A stretch of 64,000 bases of DNA. Origin: Lachnospiraceae bacterium (GTDB lineage Bacteria; Bacillota; Clostridia; Lachnospirales; Lachnospiraceae). Positions 14,687 to 53,585 of the stretch are shown in pieces. The notes beneath the pieces were generated by a model. It was not told where the DNA came from, ran no database searches, and saw only the letters and a program-made list of their open reading frames with translations. Both the position numbers and the translations under genes were made by a program. The first letter of the stretch is position 1. Every line of letters starts with the position of its first letter. The DNA lies in assembly GCA_022796475.1 (NCBI GenBank), contig JAAWIS010000004.1:1-64000 (forward strand), given 5' to 3'.

Positions 14687-14716
14687 AGAGCGTGTTCCAA
14701 TTTTCAAACACGCTCT
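14687..14716 (-). terminator. Intrinsic terminator downstream of the hybrid kinase gene
   Basis: agagcgtgtt/aacacgctct 10-bp stem followed on the minus strand by a T-rich stretch (TTAGTTTATTTTT). Confidence 0.7.
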
Positions 14717-14832: not shown

Positions 14833-17556
14833 CTATGCATTTGTATCTGGCTTCGATGCTTCTGATAAATAGATACTGTCCTCATACTTTCTCATAAACA
14901 GCAGGCCAAAGGAACCGGGTCCGCAGTTGCTGGCAATAGCAGAAGAAGCTCTCTGCACATAAACCCGTTCAAATGGACAATACTGTTGTACCAGATCCTG
15001 GATATACCGAAGGCTTTCACTGTCCATTCCCGCATATGTAATAAACAGGATTCTCTGATCTATGTTTTTTGCATTTGCAAACACTTTTCGGACATAGCGT
15101 TTTGCAACACGGGAAAAACTGCCCATTTCCATACCGCCAACCATAATTTTGCTGTTTCGAAGTACAATGACCGGATGAAGCAGCAGTGCGTCACACAAAA
15201 CTTGTATCCGTTTGGATATTTTCCCGGCCCGGCACATCATGTGAGTATTGTCAATAATAAAAGCTGATGAAATGTAGCGCCTTAGCTTTTTTACAGTTCT
15301 TATAATTTCTGCCTTTGTGGCATGATTTTCTGCCTTATAAGCAGCATACAGCACCGCCAGTCCCATACTGCTGGAAAGGTGGCCGGAATCCAGAACGGTT
15401 ACATTTTCAAAAGATTTTGCCGCTTCCAAAGCATTATAATATCCCTGGCTGACATGTTTGGCCATGGTAATATGGATTACATTCTGGGCTTCGGTTAGCC
15501 TCTCCGCAAAAAAACGTTCATAGTCCTCTACACTGGGTGCCTGAGAGAAGCCATTTTTCCCTTCTGCAATATATGACAGCAATTCATCTGCCTTCAATTC
15601 CTGTTCATCCAAAAACCTTCCGTTATCTGTACAGACATAATATGGGCAAACAGTAAGATGCAACTCTTTCTTTAGAGCCTCCGGCAGATCGCATACGCTG
15701 TCTGTGGTTACCGCAAGAAATACCCGCTTCGTCTTTTCAAAGATCAAAACATCCTTTCCAATCTCTGACTGACTTGAGAGTTCACTTATCTTTACCAGTT
15801 CCTTTGGCAGGATACTCAATACAGCAGCCTCCAGCAAAGCCCCGCTCACCGGTTTTGCCAGGTAACCGCTGAAGCCTTCTTTCCGGTAAAGCAGTTGGTT
15901 ATCGCTGCCAGCATTTGCTGTCAAAGCCAGCACAGGCACATCCTGGCATAATCCGCCTGGTTGTGTGCGCAATGCATGAAGACACTGAATTCCATCCATC
16001 TCCGGCATTAGATGATCCATTAAAATAGCATCGTAATGCTGAATCTGTGTCAGCCTCAAACAATCCACTGCACTTAATGCGGTATCCAGATGAATCTTGG
16101 TGGAGGCCAGAAGCTTCCGCACTACCATCAAATTCATTTCATTATCATCAACCACAAGAATATGCGCATCCGGCGCCTCAAAGCTTTGCCTGTAACGATC
16201 TCCGTCACGGGATCTCACACGGGAATCCAGGGTAAAGGTTCCCAGCTCTTTATCATCTACAATATCCTGCTCTAACATAACGAGAAATGTAGATCCCTTG
16301 GTATACACGCTGTTAACGCTGATTTCTCCGCCCATCAGCTCCACTAACTGATGAACGATGCTTAACCCAAGTCCTGTGCCTTCAATATGGCGGTTCTTTT
16401 CCTCATTTACCCTTTTAAATGCGTTAAATATATAGGGAATATTTTCCTTCTTCACCCCCTGTCCTGTATCTTCTACAGAATACCACACCCGCACCCGGTT
16501 AAGCCTTACACGTTCACACCAAATAGAAAGCTTAACGGATCCTTTGCTGGTATATTTAACAGCATTATTCAGCAAATTGATAAGAATCTGCTTGATACGT
16601 ATCTCATCACCGCAAAGCATGCTTGGAATGGAGGAATCCACATGCAGCTGAAATTCCAGCCCCTTTTCTCTGGCTCTAATCCAAATCATATTAACGATTT
16701 CTGAAAAGAGGGCGCCTGTTTCATAGGAAACATTTACAATCTCCATTTTTCCGGATTTAATTTTAGATAAATCCAGGATATCATTAATAAGCGTAAGCAG
16801 CATTTTGCTGGCACTCTGGATATTTCTTGCATTTTCAGCAACATCTTCTGAAATATTTCCTCGAAGAATAATTTCATTCAGCCCGATAATGGTATTGATC
16901 GGCGTGCGGATTTCATGACTCATGCTGGAAAAAAAGTTATTTTCTGCTTTGTTTAATTCCTCAATCTCCTTTTTTTGCTGCCTGGAAATCTCGTTTTCTT
17001 CTTCATAAAGCCCAGTTACAAACAAAATCAGTATACTGGTCATCATTCCTACCAAAATAACGGAAACAGCAGAACAGAAAAAGGAATAGCCCAATGTATT
17101 TTGGGCAACAATTTCCGGAAAATGATAAGCCGTGTAATAACACAGTGACGTTTCCACCGCGCAGAACACAAAAAAGATCGCCTTGCGTCTTCCCCGAAGG
17201 GTAATGCTGATATAAATAAAGCAAAGCACAAACCATTCAGATACCCCGCTGAAAAATCCGCCTGCTGTAAAAAAACTAACAGGAAAAAGGAGAAGAAGAA
17301 GCAGAGCAATCGCAGTAGCGCCTGCCTGGATGCATTCCTTTCGAATACTGATCCTTACAATCACCGCAATACAAATAAGACTGGCTGCCAAAAGCAGCAA
17401 ATTAGGGAGATTCCTTCCCATAAGCATAATAATTATCAGGGCAACCATGCAAATGCCTGTAATCACACGGAACATACGTTCCTGAAGACTGACTTTATGA
17501 TCAAAGATTATTTCACACCACTTTTTAAACACACCAGTACTTCCTCCTGTTTTCAT
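14833..17556 (-). CDS. Membrane hybrid histidine kinase: TM region, HisKA, HATPase_c, REC, and C-terminal DegV/FakB-like fatty-acid-binding domain
   Basis: H-box SSMSHEIRTPINTIIGLNE; N-box NLLNNAVKYT; G-box GTGLGLSIV; REC ILMDHLMPEMDG; then DegV hallmarks TTDSVCDLP, SQAPS, VLDSGHLSSSMGLA, CGPGSFGLLFM. Alternative GTG start near 17532 follows AGGAGG. Confidence 0.88.
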   Translation of the reverse strand: MKTGGSTGVFKKWCEIIFDHKVSLQERMFRVITGICMVALIIIMLMGRNLPNLLLLAASLICIAVIVRISIRKECIQAGATAIALLLLLLFPVSFFTAGGFFSGVSEWFVLCFIYISITLRGRRKAIFFVFCAVETSLCYYTAYHFPEIVAQNTLGYSFFCSAVSVILVGMMTSILILFVTGLYEEENEISRQQKKEIEELNKAENNFFSSMSHEIRTPINTIIGLNEIILRGNISEDVAENARNIQSASKMLLTLINDILDLSKIKSGKMEIVNVSYETGALFSEIVNMIWIRAREKGLEFQLHVDSSIPSMLCGDEIRIKQILINLLNNAVKYTSKGSVKLSIWCERVRLNRVRVWYSVEDTGQGVKKENIPYIFNAFKRVNEEKNRHIEGTGLGLSIVHQLVELMGGEISVNSVYTKGSTFLVMLEQDIVDDKELGTFTLDSRVRSRDGDRYRQSFEAPDAHILVVDDNEMNLMVVRKLLASTKIHLDTALSAVDCLRLTQIQHYDAILMDHLMPEMDGIQCLHALRTQPGGLCQDVPVLALTANAGSDNQLLYRKEGFSGYLAKPVSGALLEAAVLSILPKELVKISELSSQSEIGKDVLIFEKTKRVFLAVTTDSVCDLPEALKKELHLTVCPYYVCTDNGRFLDEQELKADELLSYIAEGKNGFSQAPSVEDYERFFAERLTEAQNVIHITMAKHVSQGYYNALEAAKSFENVTVLDSGHLSSSMGLAVLYAAYKAENHATKAEIIRTVKKLRRYISSAFIIDNTHMMCRAGKISKRIQVLCDALLLHPVIVLRNSKIMVGGMEMGSFSRVAKRYVRKVFANAKNIDQRILFITYAGMDSESLRYIQDLVQQYCPFERVYVQRASSAIASNCGPGSFGLLFMRKYEDSIYLSEASKPDTNA

Positions 17557-20487
17557 TTATAATCCGGCAAGGGTGTTGCAAGTTTCATCATACAAGCGAA
17601 GCAGTGTGGGATGGCTGTGCCGGACATATCCTATATTTCTTTCTTTTGAGGCCAGCTCCAGCAGCTTTGCCTGTTCTGCCAGCCGTTCTGCACCAATGGT
17701 CAATGATGTGCTTTTTAATGCATGAACCTTGACCGCATAATCCCCCCAGTTTTCGGTGTCAAACAGGGAAATAATTTCCGCCTTCTTTTCCACAGCCTGG
17801 GAGCAGAACATCCGCAGCATTTCCAAATAAAATTCTTCCTCCCCACAGCAGTAGTCCAGGCCCAACTGTACATTGATTCCTATTTGTGTCAGCTCGTCAT
17901 AAGGCAGAAGAGATTCATTTTCAATCGCATAATCTTCCTGACTGCCATCCTCAGAAAAAGAGTCATACTCTCTGTCATCCTCCTCTGAAAATTCCTCAAA
18001 AGCCTCCTCCATGGGTTCGTCTTTGTATTCTGATAACATTTCATCAGATACTTCATCCTTAGAATCAACCTTATCCTCAAAATCAATCCGACCCTCAGAA
18101 TCAATCTTATCTTCTGGCAAGAGTTTATCAGGCTCCTTAATACCTGACAAAATTTGAGCCGGATCCTTATCCTCCGGATAAAAATCTTCCTTAAACAAGA
18201 AATCATCAGAAGCCTCTTCTTGGTATTTCCTGTCTGGTACAAGGTTTTCAGGTGTTTTTTCCTGACGGCTTTTTCCCGAAGATTTTTTCTTTGAAACAGC
18301 CTCTTCCATTAGAGGAATATCTGCTGATCCCGCATTTTTCTTTCGTTTCTTCTTTTTCTTTTTGCCGCCGGGACTGGCAGCAGATGCAATCGTTTCTTTC
18401 GTAAATCCCTCAAACATTATAGGCGCTTCATCGTACTGAATCTGATGCAGCGGCAGTACTTTTCGCAGTACGCGCTCCAGAACTGCACGCTCAATCGGTT
18501 TTGGTATAAATTCAGTAAATCCTTCATTTCGGAACATTTCTCTTGCACCGCTGATAGTATTTGCTGTCAATGCAATAATTGGCAGTTCCTTAAAAGCTCC
18601 ATCGTTGATTTTGCGGATCTGTTTCAACGTTTCCACACCGTCAAAGCCTGGCATCATATGATCCAGGAAAATAATATCATATGGCGTAGCCGCACACCGA
18701 TCCACAGCCTCTTTTCCGCTGAGACAGGTATCCACCTGGATCCCATAGCTGCCCAGTACCCCTTTGGCAACTACAAGATTCATCTCTTCATCATCAACAG
18801 CCAGAACCCGGACGCCCTCACAGGAAAACGGCTTACGGCCTGCAGCCTGTGCCTCGTCAAATCCGTTTGCCTCTACTTGGCCGTTTAACAGATTTACCAC
18901 GGCAAGAGCAAAGAATGGCTTATGAATCACCATAAGTCTGCTGTTCCGGTTAAGCATAAATTCCCGCTCAGCAATCACAACAACCTGAAGCTTTTCAGCA
19001 AGGTTCTCATAATAAGAAATGTTCTCCTGGTATTCAGCCTGTGTAATAAATACATGGGTAAACGCGTGGTTAGCCAAAAGTTTTTGCAGGCCTTCAAAAT
19101 TATGTGCCTGATATCCCTCAACATGAAGCCCCTTCATCATGTGCAGAATCATATTGTCATAATAGATTCGCACATCATCGCTGACATATTTATCCGGGCG
19201 GAAATAACATGCAATACACAGCTTATCTGGCCGTGAAATTATCATAGCCGGAGTTTCATCCGCCACTCCCTGGGGAATGGTGATTTGGGCATGAAGCCCC
19301 TCCTGCTCTTTGCTGTCAAAGTGGATGAACCCGCCCATAGCATGAAGCAGGCCCCGGGCAATGGGAAGTCCAAGACCAAGGCCGCCAGCAAAACGGCTGC
19401 TTCCGGAATCTGCCTGGTAAAAGTCATCACACATCTGTGTAAGCTGCGAACCAGTCATGCCAATACCGGTATCGTTGATATCAATGATCATATTGATACC
19501 GTAATTTTCTTTTCGATACTGAATGCAGACATTAATTCCGCCTTCTTCTGTAAACTTAATCGAATTTTCCAGAAGAATTTTAAGAATATGAGAAATTTTT
19601 TCTACATCGCCAATCAGAACAGAGGGCATTTTCGGATCTAAATCAAATACCATTTCCAATTGGTGTTTGCTGTTCTGCATAGCAGTCATGGTAATGATAT
19701 CATTCAGCAATGAATTGATTCGGTACGGTTCATTTTCTGCTGTCAGTGTTCCTTCTACGATTTCTGTATAATCAATCATGTTATTGATTTGATTAGACAG
19801 ACGTTTCCCTGCCATCTGTATGGAGTGAATATCTGTCCGGATTTCCCGTGAAATATTTTTTTCCAGGATAACCTCACTGATTCCAAGAACCATATTAATA
19901 GGAGTTCTGAGTTCATGTGATACATTGGACAGAAATTCCGCATTCTGTCTTCCTGTAATTTCCAATTGCGCAAGGGTTTTGTCATACCGTTTCCTTGCCC
20001 CCCGCCTTCTGTTAATACGAAATATTGCGATTGCCATAGAACCTGCAATCAGAGTAGCGCCCATTGCCAGGCGCACCACATCTTGTAAGCCTATGTTGTA
20101 AGTAATGGAATGCAGCACAAAAAAATGATATATCAATTCCAGTACATATAGAACGGCTGTCATATACAACAGCCGCTTTTTATCAAGCATAGAAAAAACA
20201 AGAATAATCATACCGGCTACAGAAGGAATATCAAAAAGAGTGGCCTTATGTACTCCAAAGAAGAAGAAACCAATCATCAGCAGCCCAGAGCATAAATTTT
20301 GATAAAATGTTTCCGAACCAGCCCTTCCGATATGAAGGCACCATACAAGGGTATTGCCGACTAAAATAATAGGAACCATCCACAGTTCCCATGACAGGGC
20401 TAACGTTATAAGAATCAGCATTACGCCAAACATAGTGACTATGCTGGCCAGAAGCAGATGTAAACTCGTCTGACCTTTTGCTCTCAT
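17557..20487 (-). CDS. Membrane hybrid histidine kinase: HisKA, HATPase_c, pseudo-REC, REC, charged linker, HPt
   Basis: H-box LSNVSHELRTPINMVLGISE; REC IIFLDHMMPGFDG; HPt motif VHALKSTSLTIGAERL near the C-terminus; Lys-rich then acidic linker. Confidence 0.88.
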   Translation of the reverse strand: MRAKGQTSLHLLLASIVTMFGVMLILITLALSWELWMVPIILVGNTLVWCLHIGRAGSETFYQNLCSGLLMIGFFFFGVHKATLFDIPSVAGMIILVFSMLDKKRLLYMTAVLYVLELIYHFFVLHSITYNIGLQDVVRLAMGATLIAGSMAIAIFRINRRRGARKRYDKTLAQLEITGRQNAEFLSNVSHELRTPINMVLGISEVILEKNISREIRTDIHSIQMAGKRLSNQINNMIDYTEIVEGTLTAENEPYRINSLLNDIITMTAMQNSKHQLEMVFDLDPKMPSVLIGDVEKISHILKILLENSIKFTEEGGINVCIQYRKENYGINMIIDINDTGIGMTGSQLTQMCDDFYQADSGSSRFAGGLGLGLPIARGLLHAMGGFIHFDSKEQEGLHAQITIPQGVADETPAMIISRPDKLCIACYFRPDKYVSDDVRIYYDNMILHMMKGLHVEGYQAHNFEGLQKLLANHAFTHVFITQAEYQENISYYENLAEKLQVVVIAEREFMLNRNSRLMVIHKPFFALAVVNLLNGQVEANGFDEAQAAGRKPFSCEGVRVLAVDDEEMNLVVAKGVLGSYGIQVDTCLSGKEAVDRCAATPYDIIFLDHMMPGFDGVETLKQIRKINDGAFKELPIIALTANTISGAREMFRNEGFTEFIPKPIERAVLERVLRKVLPLHQIQYDEAPIMFEGFTKETIASAASPGGKKKKKKRKKNAGSADIPLMEEAVSKKKSSGKSRQEKTPENLVPDRKYQEEASDDFLFKEDFYPEDKDPAQILSGIKEPDKLLPEDKIDSEGRIDFEDKVDSKDEVSDEMLSEYKDEPMEEAFEEFSEEDDREYDSFSEDGSQEDYAIENESLLPYDELTQIGINVQLGLDYCCGEEEFYLEMLRMFCSQAVEKKAEIISLFDTENWGDYAVKVHALKSTSLTIGAERLAEQAKLLELASKERNIGYVRHSHPTLLRLYDETCNTLAGL

Positions 20488-20489
20488 TG

Positions 20490-20852
20490 CTATTGCTCCT
20501 CCAATCCCATGGCAACTCTTTTGAGCAGTTCTTGTGGAAAAAATGGTTTTTTAAGATAATTAACTGCTCCTAAGCTGATAGCAGTCCGCACATCATCTTC
20601 ATATCCGGACGCCGTCAGAAAAATAACAGGAATATCCACATTGGCGTCCTTCATGCGTTTAAAGGTTTCAATTCCGTCCATAATGGGCATTGCTATATCA
20701 AGAAGGATCAAGTCAATTTTTTCATATTTAATCTTATTAAGAGCTTCTCTTCCGGATTCCGCAAGAAGTATATTGTAAAATTTCTCTAAAATCATCTGAG
20801 TTCTCTTCAAATTCATTGCATCATCATCCACTACTAAAATCCGTTTGCGCAT
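20490..20852 (-). CDS. Stand-alone receiver (REC-only) response regulator
   Basis: MRKRILVVDDDAMNLKRTQMILEKF...LILLDIAMPIMDG...VIFLTA...LKKPF; ATG 20852 after AAGGAGG. Confidence 0.9.
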   Translation of the reverse strand: MRKRILVVDDDAMNLKRTQMILEKFYNILLAESGREALNKIKYEKIDLILLDIAMPIMDGIETFKRMKDANVDIPVIFLTASGYEDDVRTAISLGAVNYLKKPFFPQELLKRVAMGLEEQ

Positions 20853-21149
20853 AACAGCAGCCTCCTTATATACTCTTAGGATTTCTCCAACCCTCTTAAG
20901 ATATATTCTAAAGCAGGATTGTAATAAAATCAAGTCAAATAATACCCAATATCCGGATCTTCCCCACGCCATGACAAATCTCTTCTATTGGTCACACAAA
21001 AGCTTCATTTTTCTTTCAGCAATTTTTCTGCAGCCTGGAAATTTTCCATTTTTTAATCCTTCCGCAGCTAAATTTTATCTGCCCGCACAATTTCCTATTT
21101 ATGGAAACGCAAAAATACAACACCCCTGCTGCCTTTCAAAACTAAAAAC

Positions 21150-21200: not shown

Positions 21201-22580
21201 TTAATTATACCAGTCATCCTGGGTCCAGTCCGGTTCCACTGGTTCCCTTCCGGTTATATTGGATACCTCCTGATCGTCAATTTTGACTACCTGTCCGGAA
21301 GCGCCTGTTTTGTACCGGCTGCCGTCGCTCATTTTTACTGTAGTATTTTTCAGTACTTTTCCGGAGCTGTTTACTAATACTCCATAGTCTTTGCCCGGCA
21401 TATTGATAATCTCATACTTATCGTCTTGGGCTGCCTGAACCTTTCCTACATAGTAAAAGTAATTATCCCGTATTCCGGTATAGCCTCTGCCTGCATCTGT
21501 AAAATAGAAAGTGTTCACTTCACCGCTGTCTTCCTGAACCTGCTGGCGGCCTTTATGAGCCCAGCACTCATTCTCATTCCTTCCGAAGTAATAAGAAGTA
21601 TACTCTCCCTCATTTCCTTCATTTAAGTATACTTTTCTAAGACCGTATACTGGATTTCCATATTCGTTAAACAGGTAGGTTTTGCCGCCGATGGTGATTA
21701 AATCCTTAACTGTGGCAGTTCCGTCCTCATCAGCTTTTGGAACGCCTTTGGAGTTAAAATAGTACCAGTGAATCTCACCATCTCCATGCTCCATGCCTCT
21801 AGGCGCCTCTGCTGAATACCATCCAGTTACCATCTTGCCGTTTGAAAGGAAATACCGGTAACCTGTGATCCCGCTGTCCCCTGTTACATTCTTCCAGCCG
21901 TACTGCAAAGCTCCATCCATATTCATACAGTAATAGTCTTTGTCAATCCGTACCACGCCGTTTTCTCCGCCGTCTTCCTTAGGAGTCAGTTTCTTACCGT
22001 TTGATTTAAAGTAGTACCAGTATTGTCCATCATTTTCTGCTAATGAAAACGGATCGTAATCTTCTTCTGAATCCTGGCTGTAGTCCACATCTTCCGGCGG
22101 ATCCAGCCTCTGCCATCCGATCAGCATCTCGCCATCAGAATTGGTATAATATTGATTTTCATCTACCCACCCGGTAAGCATCAGGCCGGTTTCATCAAAA
22201 AAATACCATTTATTATTAATTTTTTTCCAGCCTTCCTTTACTGCCTTACCCTTTCCGTCAAAGTAAAACCAACAGATTCCGTCTGAGTAGTCGGAACCAT
22301 CTAAACGGATCCAGCCGTCGGTTACCATAATTCCGTCAGAATCCACATAGTATTCATCATCTACCCACATATCCGTAGCAATATAGCCGGAACTGTTCAG
22401 ATAGCGCCATTTTCCGTCAGCTCCCTTCTGCCATTGGTTTTTCACAATATATCCATAGTTGTCCTGATACTGCCACTGACCGTTATTTTGAACCCAACCG
22501 GCAGCCGCCCAAACAGAAGATGACGCCCCTAAAGCAAGCGCCGCCGTAAGCACTGCTACTGCAATTCCTTTTTTCTTCAT
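21201..22580 (-). CDS. Secreted cell-wall/choline-binding repeat protein
   Basis: Signal peptide (MKKKGIAVAVLTAALALGASSSVWAA) and many W..(Y/F)YF...G.M.TGW repeats. Confidence 0.85.
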   Translation of the reverse strand: MKKKGIAVAVLTAALALGASSSVWAAAGWVQNNGQWQYQDNYGYIVKNQWQKGADGKWRYLNSSGYIATDMWVDDEYYVDSDGIMVTDGWIRLDGSDYSDGICWFYFDGKGKAVKEGWKKINNKWYFFDETGLMLTGWVDENQYYTNSDGEMLIGWQRLDPPEDVDYSQDSEEDYDPFSLAENDGQYWYYFKSNGKKLTPKEDGGENGVVRIDKDYYCMNMDGALQYGWKNVTGDSGITGYRYFLSNGKMVTGWYSAEAPRGMEHGDGEIHWYYFNSKGVPKADEDGTATVKDLITIGGKTYLFNEYGNPVYGLRKVYLNEGNEGEYTSYYFGRNENECWAHKGRQQVQEDSGEVNTFYFTDAGRGYTGIRDNYFYYVGKVQAAQDDKYEIINMPGKDYGVLVNSSGKVLKNTTVKMSDGSRYKTGASGQVVKIDDQEVSNITGREPVEPDWTQDDWYN

Positions 22581-51869: not shown

Positions 51870-52193
51870 CCTTTCGTTCCTCCTGTTATTTGCTGCCCAT
51901 TCCTGCCTGAAGCTCTCTTTGTACAGTTTACCATACTTCCTATAAAAAGCATACAAAATATTTTCTTACGTTACGTTCTGCCTGCAGCGCCATAAATAAC
52001 AGGGGTTTCCCCAGGGACTATCTTTCCCCTGATTTCTCCACTCCCTCCGTCCTCTTCCAGCCTTGGCGGCAGCTAGCAGTTCTGGAAACAACCTACACTA
52101 GAAATCCGGTTACAGGCAGGTTATAATCACAACCGTAATGCAACCATGGAATTTGGGCAGCCGCCCAACCACACAAAAAGGAGAGATTATATT

Positions 52194-53585
52194 ATGAAAA
52201 AACCAATCGCAATGATGGCTGTATTATCCACCGCAGCAGTAATGGCTGCCGTAACCCCTTCCTTCCTGCCTTCTGCTGATGCAGCAAGAGTTCTGGCAGC
52301 AGCAGCCGGATGGGTAGACGAAAATGGAAGCTGGCGCTACCTTGACAGCGACGGTTATTATTTAACCGATACCTGGAAGAAAAAAGATAACGAAATGTAC
52401 TATTTAGATGAAGAAGGCGAAATCGCTACCGATATGATTATAAATGATGAGTACTATGTAGATGAAACAGGCAAGCGGATGAGCAACCACTGGATCTCCG
52501 TTTACAATGAAGAGGATAATGATTCTCCGGATTCACCTGAATATTACTGGTACTATTTTGGAAGGGACAGCCGCATGGTAAGATCCAAATGGCACAAAAT
52601 AGATTCCAACTGGTATTACTTTAATTCTGACGGCCAAATGCTCACAGGAATGCAGGAAATCGACGGCAGCATCTACTATCTTGGTGAAGAAAATGACGGT
52701 GTGCGCAAAACCGGGTGGGTTCATATGGAAGAAGACCACAGCGAGCCGGACAGCTCCGATGTGTGGTACTTCTTTGACAACAATGGACGCCGGGTGGAGA
52801 ACCAGGTCGATCGGAAAATTGATCAGAATTACTATACCTTTGTAGATGGCCGTATGCAAACCGGATGGGTTAAGCTTCCGGCTTCAGCAGAAGCCTCTGC
52901 TGCTGATGCAAAGTTAGATGACGATATCTTTGGCAGCAATCAGGAAACTGCAGAGCCTAAGGAAGGATCCGTTATCGGCTATCAGTACTATGAAGAAAAT
53001 GGAAAACGTGCTTCTGGCTGGTATGAAATTGAAGGCGCCCAAGGCATCAGTGAAGAAGGGGAAACTTACCGTTTCTACTTCCGCAGCGGCAAGCCGTTAG
53101 CTGCATCAAACGGCATTCAAACCTTTAATGTAGACAATAAAAAGTACGCTTTTAACGAAAAAGGTGAAATGCAGACCGGCCTTCAGGTTATTACTCTGGC
53201 AGACGGCCAGATTGCCAATGCTTATTTTGGCGATGATGGCGTGATGAGAACTGGTAAGCAAACGATCTATAATGAAGATTCCGGTGAAACAGAAACCTGG
53301 TATTTCCATACGGACAACGAGAGAAAGGGTCAGGGCTTCCATGGTATCCGTGATAATGTAATTTATCATTACGGCCTGCGTCAGTCCGCTCCCAGCGATT
53401 TACGGTATGCACCGGTAGAATTTGAAGGAAACACTTATCTGGTAAATACTTCTGGAGCCATCCAGAAAGCTTCCTCCTCTTCCAAATCTGACGTAAAGCC
53501 AGAACTGGGGGCCGGTTTTAAAGATGTAACTGACGAAAATGCCGATGTTTGGGTTGTTGATACAAACGGTATAATTCAGAAATAA
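52194..53585 (+). CDS. Secreted cell-wall/choline-binding repeat protein, paralogue of 21201-22580
   Basis: Signal peptide MKKPIAMMAVLSTAAVMAAVTPSFL; same W/YYF/G repeats and C-terminal GIRDN...Y module. Confidence 0.85.
   Translation: MKKPIAMMAVLSTAAVMAAVTPSFLPSADAARVLAAAAGWVDENGSWRYLDSDGYYLTDTWKKKDNEMYYLDEEGEIATDMIINDEYYVDETGKRMSNHWISVYNEEDNDSPDSPEYYWYYFGRDSRMVRSKWHKIDSNWYYFNSDGQMLTGMQEIDGSIYYLGEENDGVRKTGWVHMEEDHSEPDSSDVWYFFDNNGRRVENQVDRKIDQNYYTFVDGRMQTGWVKLPASAEASAADAKLDDDIFGSNQETAEPKEGSVIGYQYYEENGKRASGWYEIEGAQGISEEGETYRFYFRSGKPLAASNGIQTFNVDNKKYAFNEKGEMQTGLQVITLADGQIANAYFGDDGVMRTGKQTIYNEDSGETETWYFHTDNERKGQGFHGIRDNVIYHYGLRQSAPSDLRYAPVEFEGNTYLVNTSGAIQKASSSSKSDVKPELGAGFKDVTDENADVWVVDTNGIIQK

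Follow-up and report, generated by a model that had tools for sequence, protein, structure and literature searches.

A predicted sensor kinase pair with a single Hpt and an absorbed DegV/FakB domain is conserved in many gut Lachnospiraceae

Introduction

Several sensor kinases can converge on one Hpt, as in the multi-kinase phosphorelays of Vibrio LuxU and Pseudomonas HptB. EDD-fold proteins, too, have moved from kinase substrate to regulator: DhaQ (PDB 2iu4 and 2iu6), which has this fold and is related to dihydroxyacetone kinase, acts as a transcription co-activator.

DegV/FakB proteins are known as the fatty-acid carriers of FakA. In S. aureus FakB1, the carboxylate of the fatty acid is surrounded by a network of T62, S95, H270 and S171, and R173, which lies over the ligand, is essential for catalysis (PMC8892158); R205 serves in docking to FakA and to the membrane (PMC8892158, PMC9136124). 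Fatty acids also act on histidine kinases. Signalling by S. aureus SaeS is inhibited by free fatty acids (PMC5539427), and in Xanthomonas DSF, itself a fatty acid, activates the kinase RpfC, which has five transmembrane (TM) helices, REC and Hpt and is partnered by the HD-GYP regulator RpfG (PMC5391125).

Here, we analyse a 64,000-nt stretch of DNA from a Lachnospiraceae bacterium (contig JAAWIS010000004.1; hereafter the window), in which a DegV domain lies within a putative phosphorelay and carries the evolutionary signature of a changed function. Judged by comparison of many such loci, it belongs to a conserved pair of sensor kinases found in many gut Lachnospiraceae, one of which has absorbed a DegV/FakB. 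The author of a first-pass annotation, made from the letters of this DNA, knew of no characterised protein with such an architecture. In agreement with this, we found neither the fusion nor its cassette described in the open-access literature that we searched; subscription papers and domain-architecture databases lay outside this search, so that earlier notice is possible.

A hybrid histidine kinase that ends in a DegV domain

Positions 14833..17556 of the window (minus strand, as are all features below for which a strand is given) hold a single unbroken ORF of 907 aa, the HK-REC-DegV hybrid histidine kinase, which is supported by Pfam and by orthologues. The first-pass annotation had read it as one ORF with TM helices, HisKA, HATPase_c, REC and DegV; all four domains scored above their Pfam cut-offs, and the motifs that it quoted are present. 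The N-terminal membrane region (residues 28–181; 17014..17475, minus strand) has six TM helices predicted from hydropathy and from the helices of an AlphaFold2 model (24–46, 50–72, 76–97, 106–119, 122–145 and 158 onward). This region contained no Pfam domain above cut-off, and a sequence search of solved structures with the N-terminal 174 residues gave no match. It is followed by HisKA (residues 205–269; 16750..16944; Pfam 6.6e-17), with the phospho-acceptor His214 in the motif SHEIRTP (16915–16917), and by HATPase_c (residues 316–429; 16270..16611; 3.5e-26) with conserved N, G1 and G2 boxes. The REC (Response_reg) domain spans residues 466–579 (15820..16161; 6e-20); its phospho-acceptor Asp514 (16015–16017) is invariant in alignment A1, as are D470, D471, T546 and K568. 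With the His, the N, G1 and G2 boxes and the REC Asp all found, the protein is a hybrid histidine kinase.

The remaining domain, DegV (residues 614–889; 14890..15717, minus strand), was recognised by Pfam, NCBIfam, alignment and structure prediction. The first-pass annotation had called it complete and had proposed a Pfam check of the C-terminal part; PF02645 indeed matched over profile positions 2–279 of 280 (9.3e-38; 130.6 bits, cut-off 27), and NCBIfam TIGR00762 scored 147 bits (cut-off 99.7). Among solved structures, the closest to the C-terminal 305 aa were DegV/FakB proteins, namely 2dt8 (1.9e-24), 1pzx, 4x9x and FakB1. Modelled with AlphaFold2 from eight sequences (from the window or named loci), the DegV part reached a mean pLDDT of 88.8 and a pTM of 0.86. 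The top Foldseek matches of this model were DegV and FakB structures, with a target TM of 0.84–0.87 for 2dt8, 1pzx and FakB1 (the last of these palmitate-loaded) and a TM-score of 0.8 to FakB1. By full-length match and by fold, the domain is therefore a member of the DegV family (PF02645), with the two-subdomain fold of FakB1 complete and above curated cut-offs; it differs from FakB1 in standing behind a hybrid kinase and in its functional residues (see below). DhaQ showed only distant structural similarity to the DegV model (TM about 0.5) and, unlike our domain, is not part of a histidine kinase. A full-length model of HK-REC-DegV reached a pTM of 0.43, which is too uncertain for domain contacts.

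Directly after the HK-REC-DegV stop, a consensus scan found a terminator-like hairpin of 11 pairs with a T-rich tail (14687..14716, minus strand), which is the probable end of the operon.

The fusion is widespread in the family

The fusion was present, full-length or nearly so, in at least 68 of the 396 genomes of the window's family, a lower bound because two candidates were scored per genome. This is the survey of Lachnospiraceae that had been proposed with the first-pass annotation, and its full-length orthologues rule out a frameshift or an assembly artefact joining two genes. Intact fusions span dozens of genera. Full-length homologues were 36–81% identical over essentially the whole protein, the nearest at 81%; the copy in the Lachnospiraceae locus L037 was 77% identical to that of the window. 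A profile search of contigs with the full-length alignment, which mostly picked up kinase motifs, found seven fusions (L036–L041 and L055). In a class-wide sample of 388 genomes, the only fusions outside the family came from a single genus in one other family (G452, G525, G695), and a phylum-wide sample of 398 genomes contained no fusion among the extra-family DegV matches at E ≤1e-60.

Among 87 fusions, the H-box was present in all and the other kinase boxes in 78 to 87. Mean pairwise identity among 25 members was 75% in the kinase core, 69% in REC, 55% in DegV and 41% in the TM part. By sequence identity and predicted structure, the DegV domain of the fusions is under constraint and keeps its full fold.

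Two records labelled Oscillospiraceae (L036) and Erysipelotrichaceae (L055) also carry HK-REC-DegV cassettes; the L036 copy is 73% identical to that of the window and was placed within its clade. Binning error, naming error or transfer are possible reasons for these labels. In L192, the fusion ORF is short at 685 aa and is separated from the partner kinase by an ORF of 266 aa; its N-terminus is probably split or frameshifted.

The kinase pair has a single Hpt

Using purpose-built profiles, with samples checked by Pfam, we annotated the domains encoded around the fusions and observed a conserved cassette order of response regulator, hybrid kinase and HK-REC-DegV. In the window, the partner is an HK-REC-Hpt hybrid kinase of 976 aa (17557..20487, minus strand; ORF and Pfam) with five TM helices predicted by hydropathy. 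Its Hpt, identified by Pfam, covers residues 889–946 (17650–17823, minus strand), and 0 bases lie between its stop and the HK-REC-DegV start. The pair is conserved. Two further stretches of the partner kinase stand out: ∼150 aa between HATPase and REC that resemble a degenerate receiver and, ahead of the Hpt, a long insert of charged, low-complexity sequence (KKKKKKRKK followed by acidic residues).

In 64 of 89 fusion ORFs, HK-REC-Hpt lay directly upstream and the fusion ended at DegV, as in the window. The complementary arrangement, HK-REC followed by HK-REC-DegV-Hpt with the Hpt after DegV, was found in 14, and none of the 89 loci surveyed had an Hpt on both kinases. The sole locus that appeared to have none (L175) ends 6 bases from a contig edge and falls within the Hpt-bearing clade; the other loci are contig ends, split or fragmentary partner kinases, or a tandem duplicate, and L038 is identical in sequence to L151. 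The Hpt-bearing fusions group together on the tree, broken only by the truncated L175, which indicates that the Hpt changed host once. The relocation is one event on the tree, and hence one observation rather than 14, yet an informative one in that the pair kept one Hpt. A tree of the Hpt domains themselves, with few columns, did not resolve the source of the relocated copy. One Hpt per kinase pair implies a shared phosphorelay, probably with c-di-GMP as its output in many relatives. The conserved operon and the shared Hpt bear most on function, and both were absent from the first-pass annotation. One cassette (L150:2254-7640) has tandem HK-REC-DegV genes of 895 and 888 aa.

The first gene of the window's cassette encodes a single-domain response regulator (REC, by Pfam), annotated as a 160-aa ORF (20490..20972, minus strand) that ends 2 bases ahead of the partner-kinase start. 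Since its orthologues are 119–126 aa long and start with MRKRILVVDDD, its own start likely lies near 20852. It shares 65–88% identity with REC genes from sister operons; beyond these, its best matches were the REC domains of REC-HD-GYP regulators in other clades (40–51%). The regulators encoded close upstream across the loci were REC (20), REC-HD-GYP (17), REC-GGDEF-REC-HD (4), REC-GGDEF-REC (2) and REC-GGDEF (2), and 42 loci had no upstream regulator within the narrow window used. The motifs of the HD-GYP regulators are intact (GYP in 23/23, HDxGK in 22/23). HD-GYP and GGDEF genes also occur elsewhere in the genome of the window, which makes c-di-GMP signalling plausible there.

FakB residues are lost from the fusion DegV

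After checking FakB1 numbering on 6mh9, an A121I mutant with the expected Ile at position 121, we compared functional residues between fusions and standalone DegVs. The window equivalents of T62, S95, R173, R205 and H270 are S671, S703, K779, M811 and N877; TTSQP and FSQAP align without gaps, placing Ser671 at FakB1 Thr62. The first-pass annotation had pointed to altered TSQPS and HTGPG motifs, and these changes (Thr62 to Ser671, His270 to Asn877) are real and family-wide. T62, S95, R173 and R205 were invariant in 19 standalone or solved DegVs, and H270 was present in 17; all five residues were kept in 17/19 standalone proteins versus 0/87 fusions. Of the carboxylate residues, the fusions have Thr or Ser at position 62 in 73/87, S95 in 53/87 and H270 in 2/87 (Asn in 78/87). 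Position 205 is Arg in 2/87 and has lost it in 85/87, compared with 19/19 in the standalone proteins, whereas R173 is retained in 35/87 and absent from 52/87. When all columns were compared with no positions preselected, seven proved conserved in standalone proteins and lost in fusions (T62, S95, L165, R173, G196, R205 and H270), five of them with published roles. On a tree, the fusion DegVs lay on one side of a branch with SH-aLRT 100.

Because the defining features of a FakB (the carboxylate network, Arg205 and Arg173) are not kept, the fusion DegV should not be filed as one; the residue tests rule out ordinary FakB identity, and they disfavour the earlier suggestion of a FakB-like fatty-acid binder that hands its ligand to FakA. 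The suspicion that altered motifs might mean altered chemistry, on the other hand, gains support from the same comparison. The genome of the window encodes FakA and three standalone DegVs that keep T62, S95, R173 and R205, two of which also keep H270, so that its fatty acid kinase can do without the fusion.

Other parts of the site are retained or newly conserved. FakB1 tunnel positions 121, 160, 162, 185, 191 and 193 stay hydrophobic in fusions; at A158, 36 of 47 sampled fusions have Thr or Ser. Exactly where FakB contacts the carboxylate, Asn877 is strongly conserved together with the C-G-P-G run next to it, and the helix after the former TSQP loop has the fusion-specific conserved residues E680, F682 and A684.

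Proposed function and alternatives

We consider it likely that HK-REC-DegV is the second kinase of a two-kinase, one-Hpt phosphorelay, in which a DegV captured once has been uncoupled from FakA and has become regulatory, probably as a ligand sensor. Both kinases would autophosphorylate, and the phosphate would travel from His to Asp and then by way of the shared Hpt to the regulator, so that two signals would set one output, ancestrally c-di-GMP turnover and, in the window's clade, a bare REC. Cut off from FakA, the captured FakB fold would sit behind the receiver and act as a regulatory module in the cytoplasm. It would most likely sense a small, probably acyl-type ligand or a partner and could bias the kinase/phosphatase balance or phosphotransfer; we infer both the ligand and the direction of this control. 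In residue pattern, the domain looks like a metabolic part turned signalling part. Like the LuxU and HptB relays, the cassette would join two kinases to one Hpt, to judge from gene order and complementary Hpt placement; here, however, the Hpt is covalently part of one kinase, and the kinase that bears it differs from clade to clade. The layout of RpfC/RpfG (PMC5391125) is shared by the partner kinase and the REC-HD-GYP regulators of many cassettes, but every cassette has the extra HK-REC-DegV kinase, and the regulator of the window is REC only, without HD-GYP.

What the DegV domain does within such a relay could be explained in several ways. A small-ligand sensor is favoured by the conserved Asn877 with Cys-Gly-Pro-Gly at the carboxylate site and by the hydrophobic tunnel positions. 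Fatty-acid or other acyl sensing is possible, and the variable carboxylate-site residues, S95 among them, would fit a uniform acyl ligand poorly. The main rival is a purely protein-binding DegV that serves, ligand-free, as a dimerisation, scaffold or docking surface for the kinases, Hpt and regulator. The ligand site is not uniformly conserved, the helix patch of E680, F682 and A684 is new, and an Hpt can sit directly after DegV, all of which would suit such a surface; the conservation around Asn877 suggests chemistry rather than a surface alone, and we regard this rival as rather unlikely. Tentatively, and with about as much reserve, the cassette might be read in the manner of RpfC/RpfG, with a FakB that was acquired a single time, lost its FakA functions and became a cytoplasmic sensor of an acyl-type signal, and with membrane-lipid or fatty-acid status and a second signal at the membrane summed through the shared, movable Hpt to control c-di-GMP.

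Two further readings seem improbable to us, and to a similar degree. In one, DegV would still be a FakB-like sensor or presenter: it would bind long-chain fatty acids, modulate the kinase and perhaps pass its ligand on to FakA. The predicted fold is complete and close to palmitate-loaded FakB1, the tunnel is hydrophobic at six positions, Ser or Thr at position 62 is common (73/87) and FakA is encoded in the same genome, but the loss of R205 (85/87), the change of H270 to Asn (78/87), the absence of R173 (52/87) and the Thr or Ser at A158 (36/47) argue against it. In the other, much as the RpfC receiver represses RpfF, REC phosphorylation would control DegV as an output domain, for example by making it release or sequester an acyl ligand or metabolic partner. 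DegV does lie C-terminal to REC, the usual position of an output domain, and the RpfC REC binds the DSF synthase RpfF (PMC5391125); against this, no partner enzyme is conserved in the fusion neighbourhoods, and in 14 loci the chain continues past DegV to an Hpt. That the gene is a frameshift, an assembly join or a decaying DegV carried passively on a kinase is scarcely credible: internal stops or split ORFs do occur in some homologous loci (e.g. L192), but dozens of genera have intact fusions, the domain is under constraint and its origin is single and old.

If the favoured ligand-sensing DegV does respond to acyl ligands, lipid status would be tied to c-di-GMP in abundant gut bacteria. In S. 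aureus, where SaeRS coexists with FakA/FakB, fatty-acid status likewise feeds a histidine kinase, but that link is indirect, with free fatty acids acting on SaeS and no DegV fusion (PMC5539427). The switch of the Hpt from one host protein to the other, in turn, predicts which proteins must communicate.

Other genes near the cassettes

In one clade, genes for CheA, CheW and a methyl-accepting chemotaxis protein lie immediately upstream of HK-REC-Hpt and HK-REC-DegV (L188:7982-11999), suggesting a chemosensory link; the same arrangement was seen by sequence in L178 and L183, and genes of like size are present in L186, L189, L190 and L193. Directly 3′ of an Hpt-bearing HK-REC-DegV kinase, L117:302-1837 encodes a sodium:alanine symporter family protein (PF01235), with similar ORFs in L118–L120 and L122, and a class III adenylate/guanylate cyclase domain (PF00211) is encoded near the cassette at L166:2-1273. 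In the window itself, a gene for a choline-binding-type repeat protein lies directly upstream of the cassette (21201–22580; Pfam), and another, judged by its sequence, at 52146–53585.
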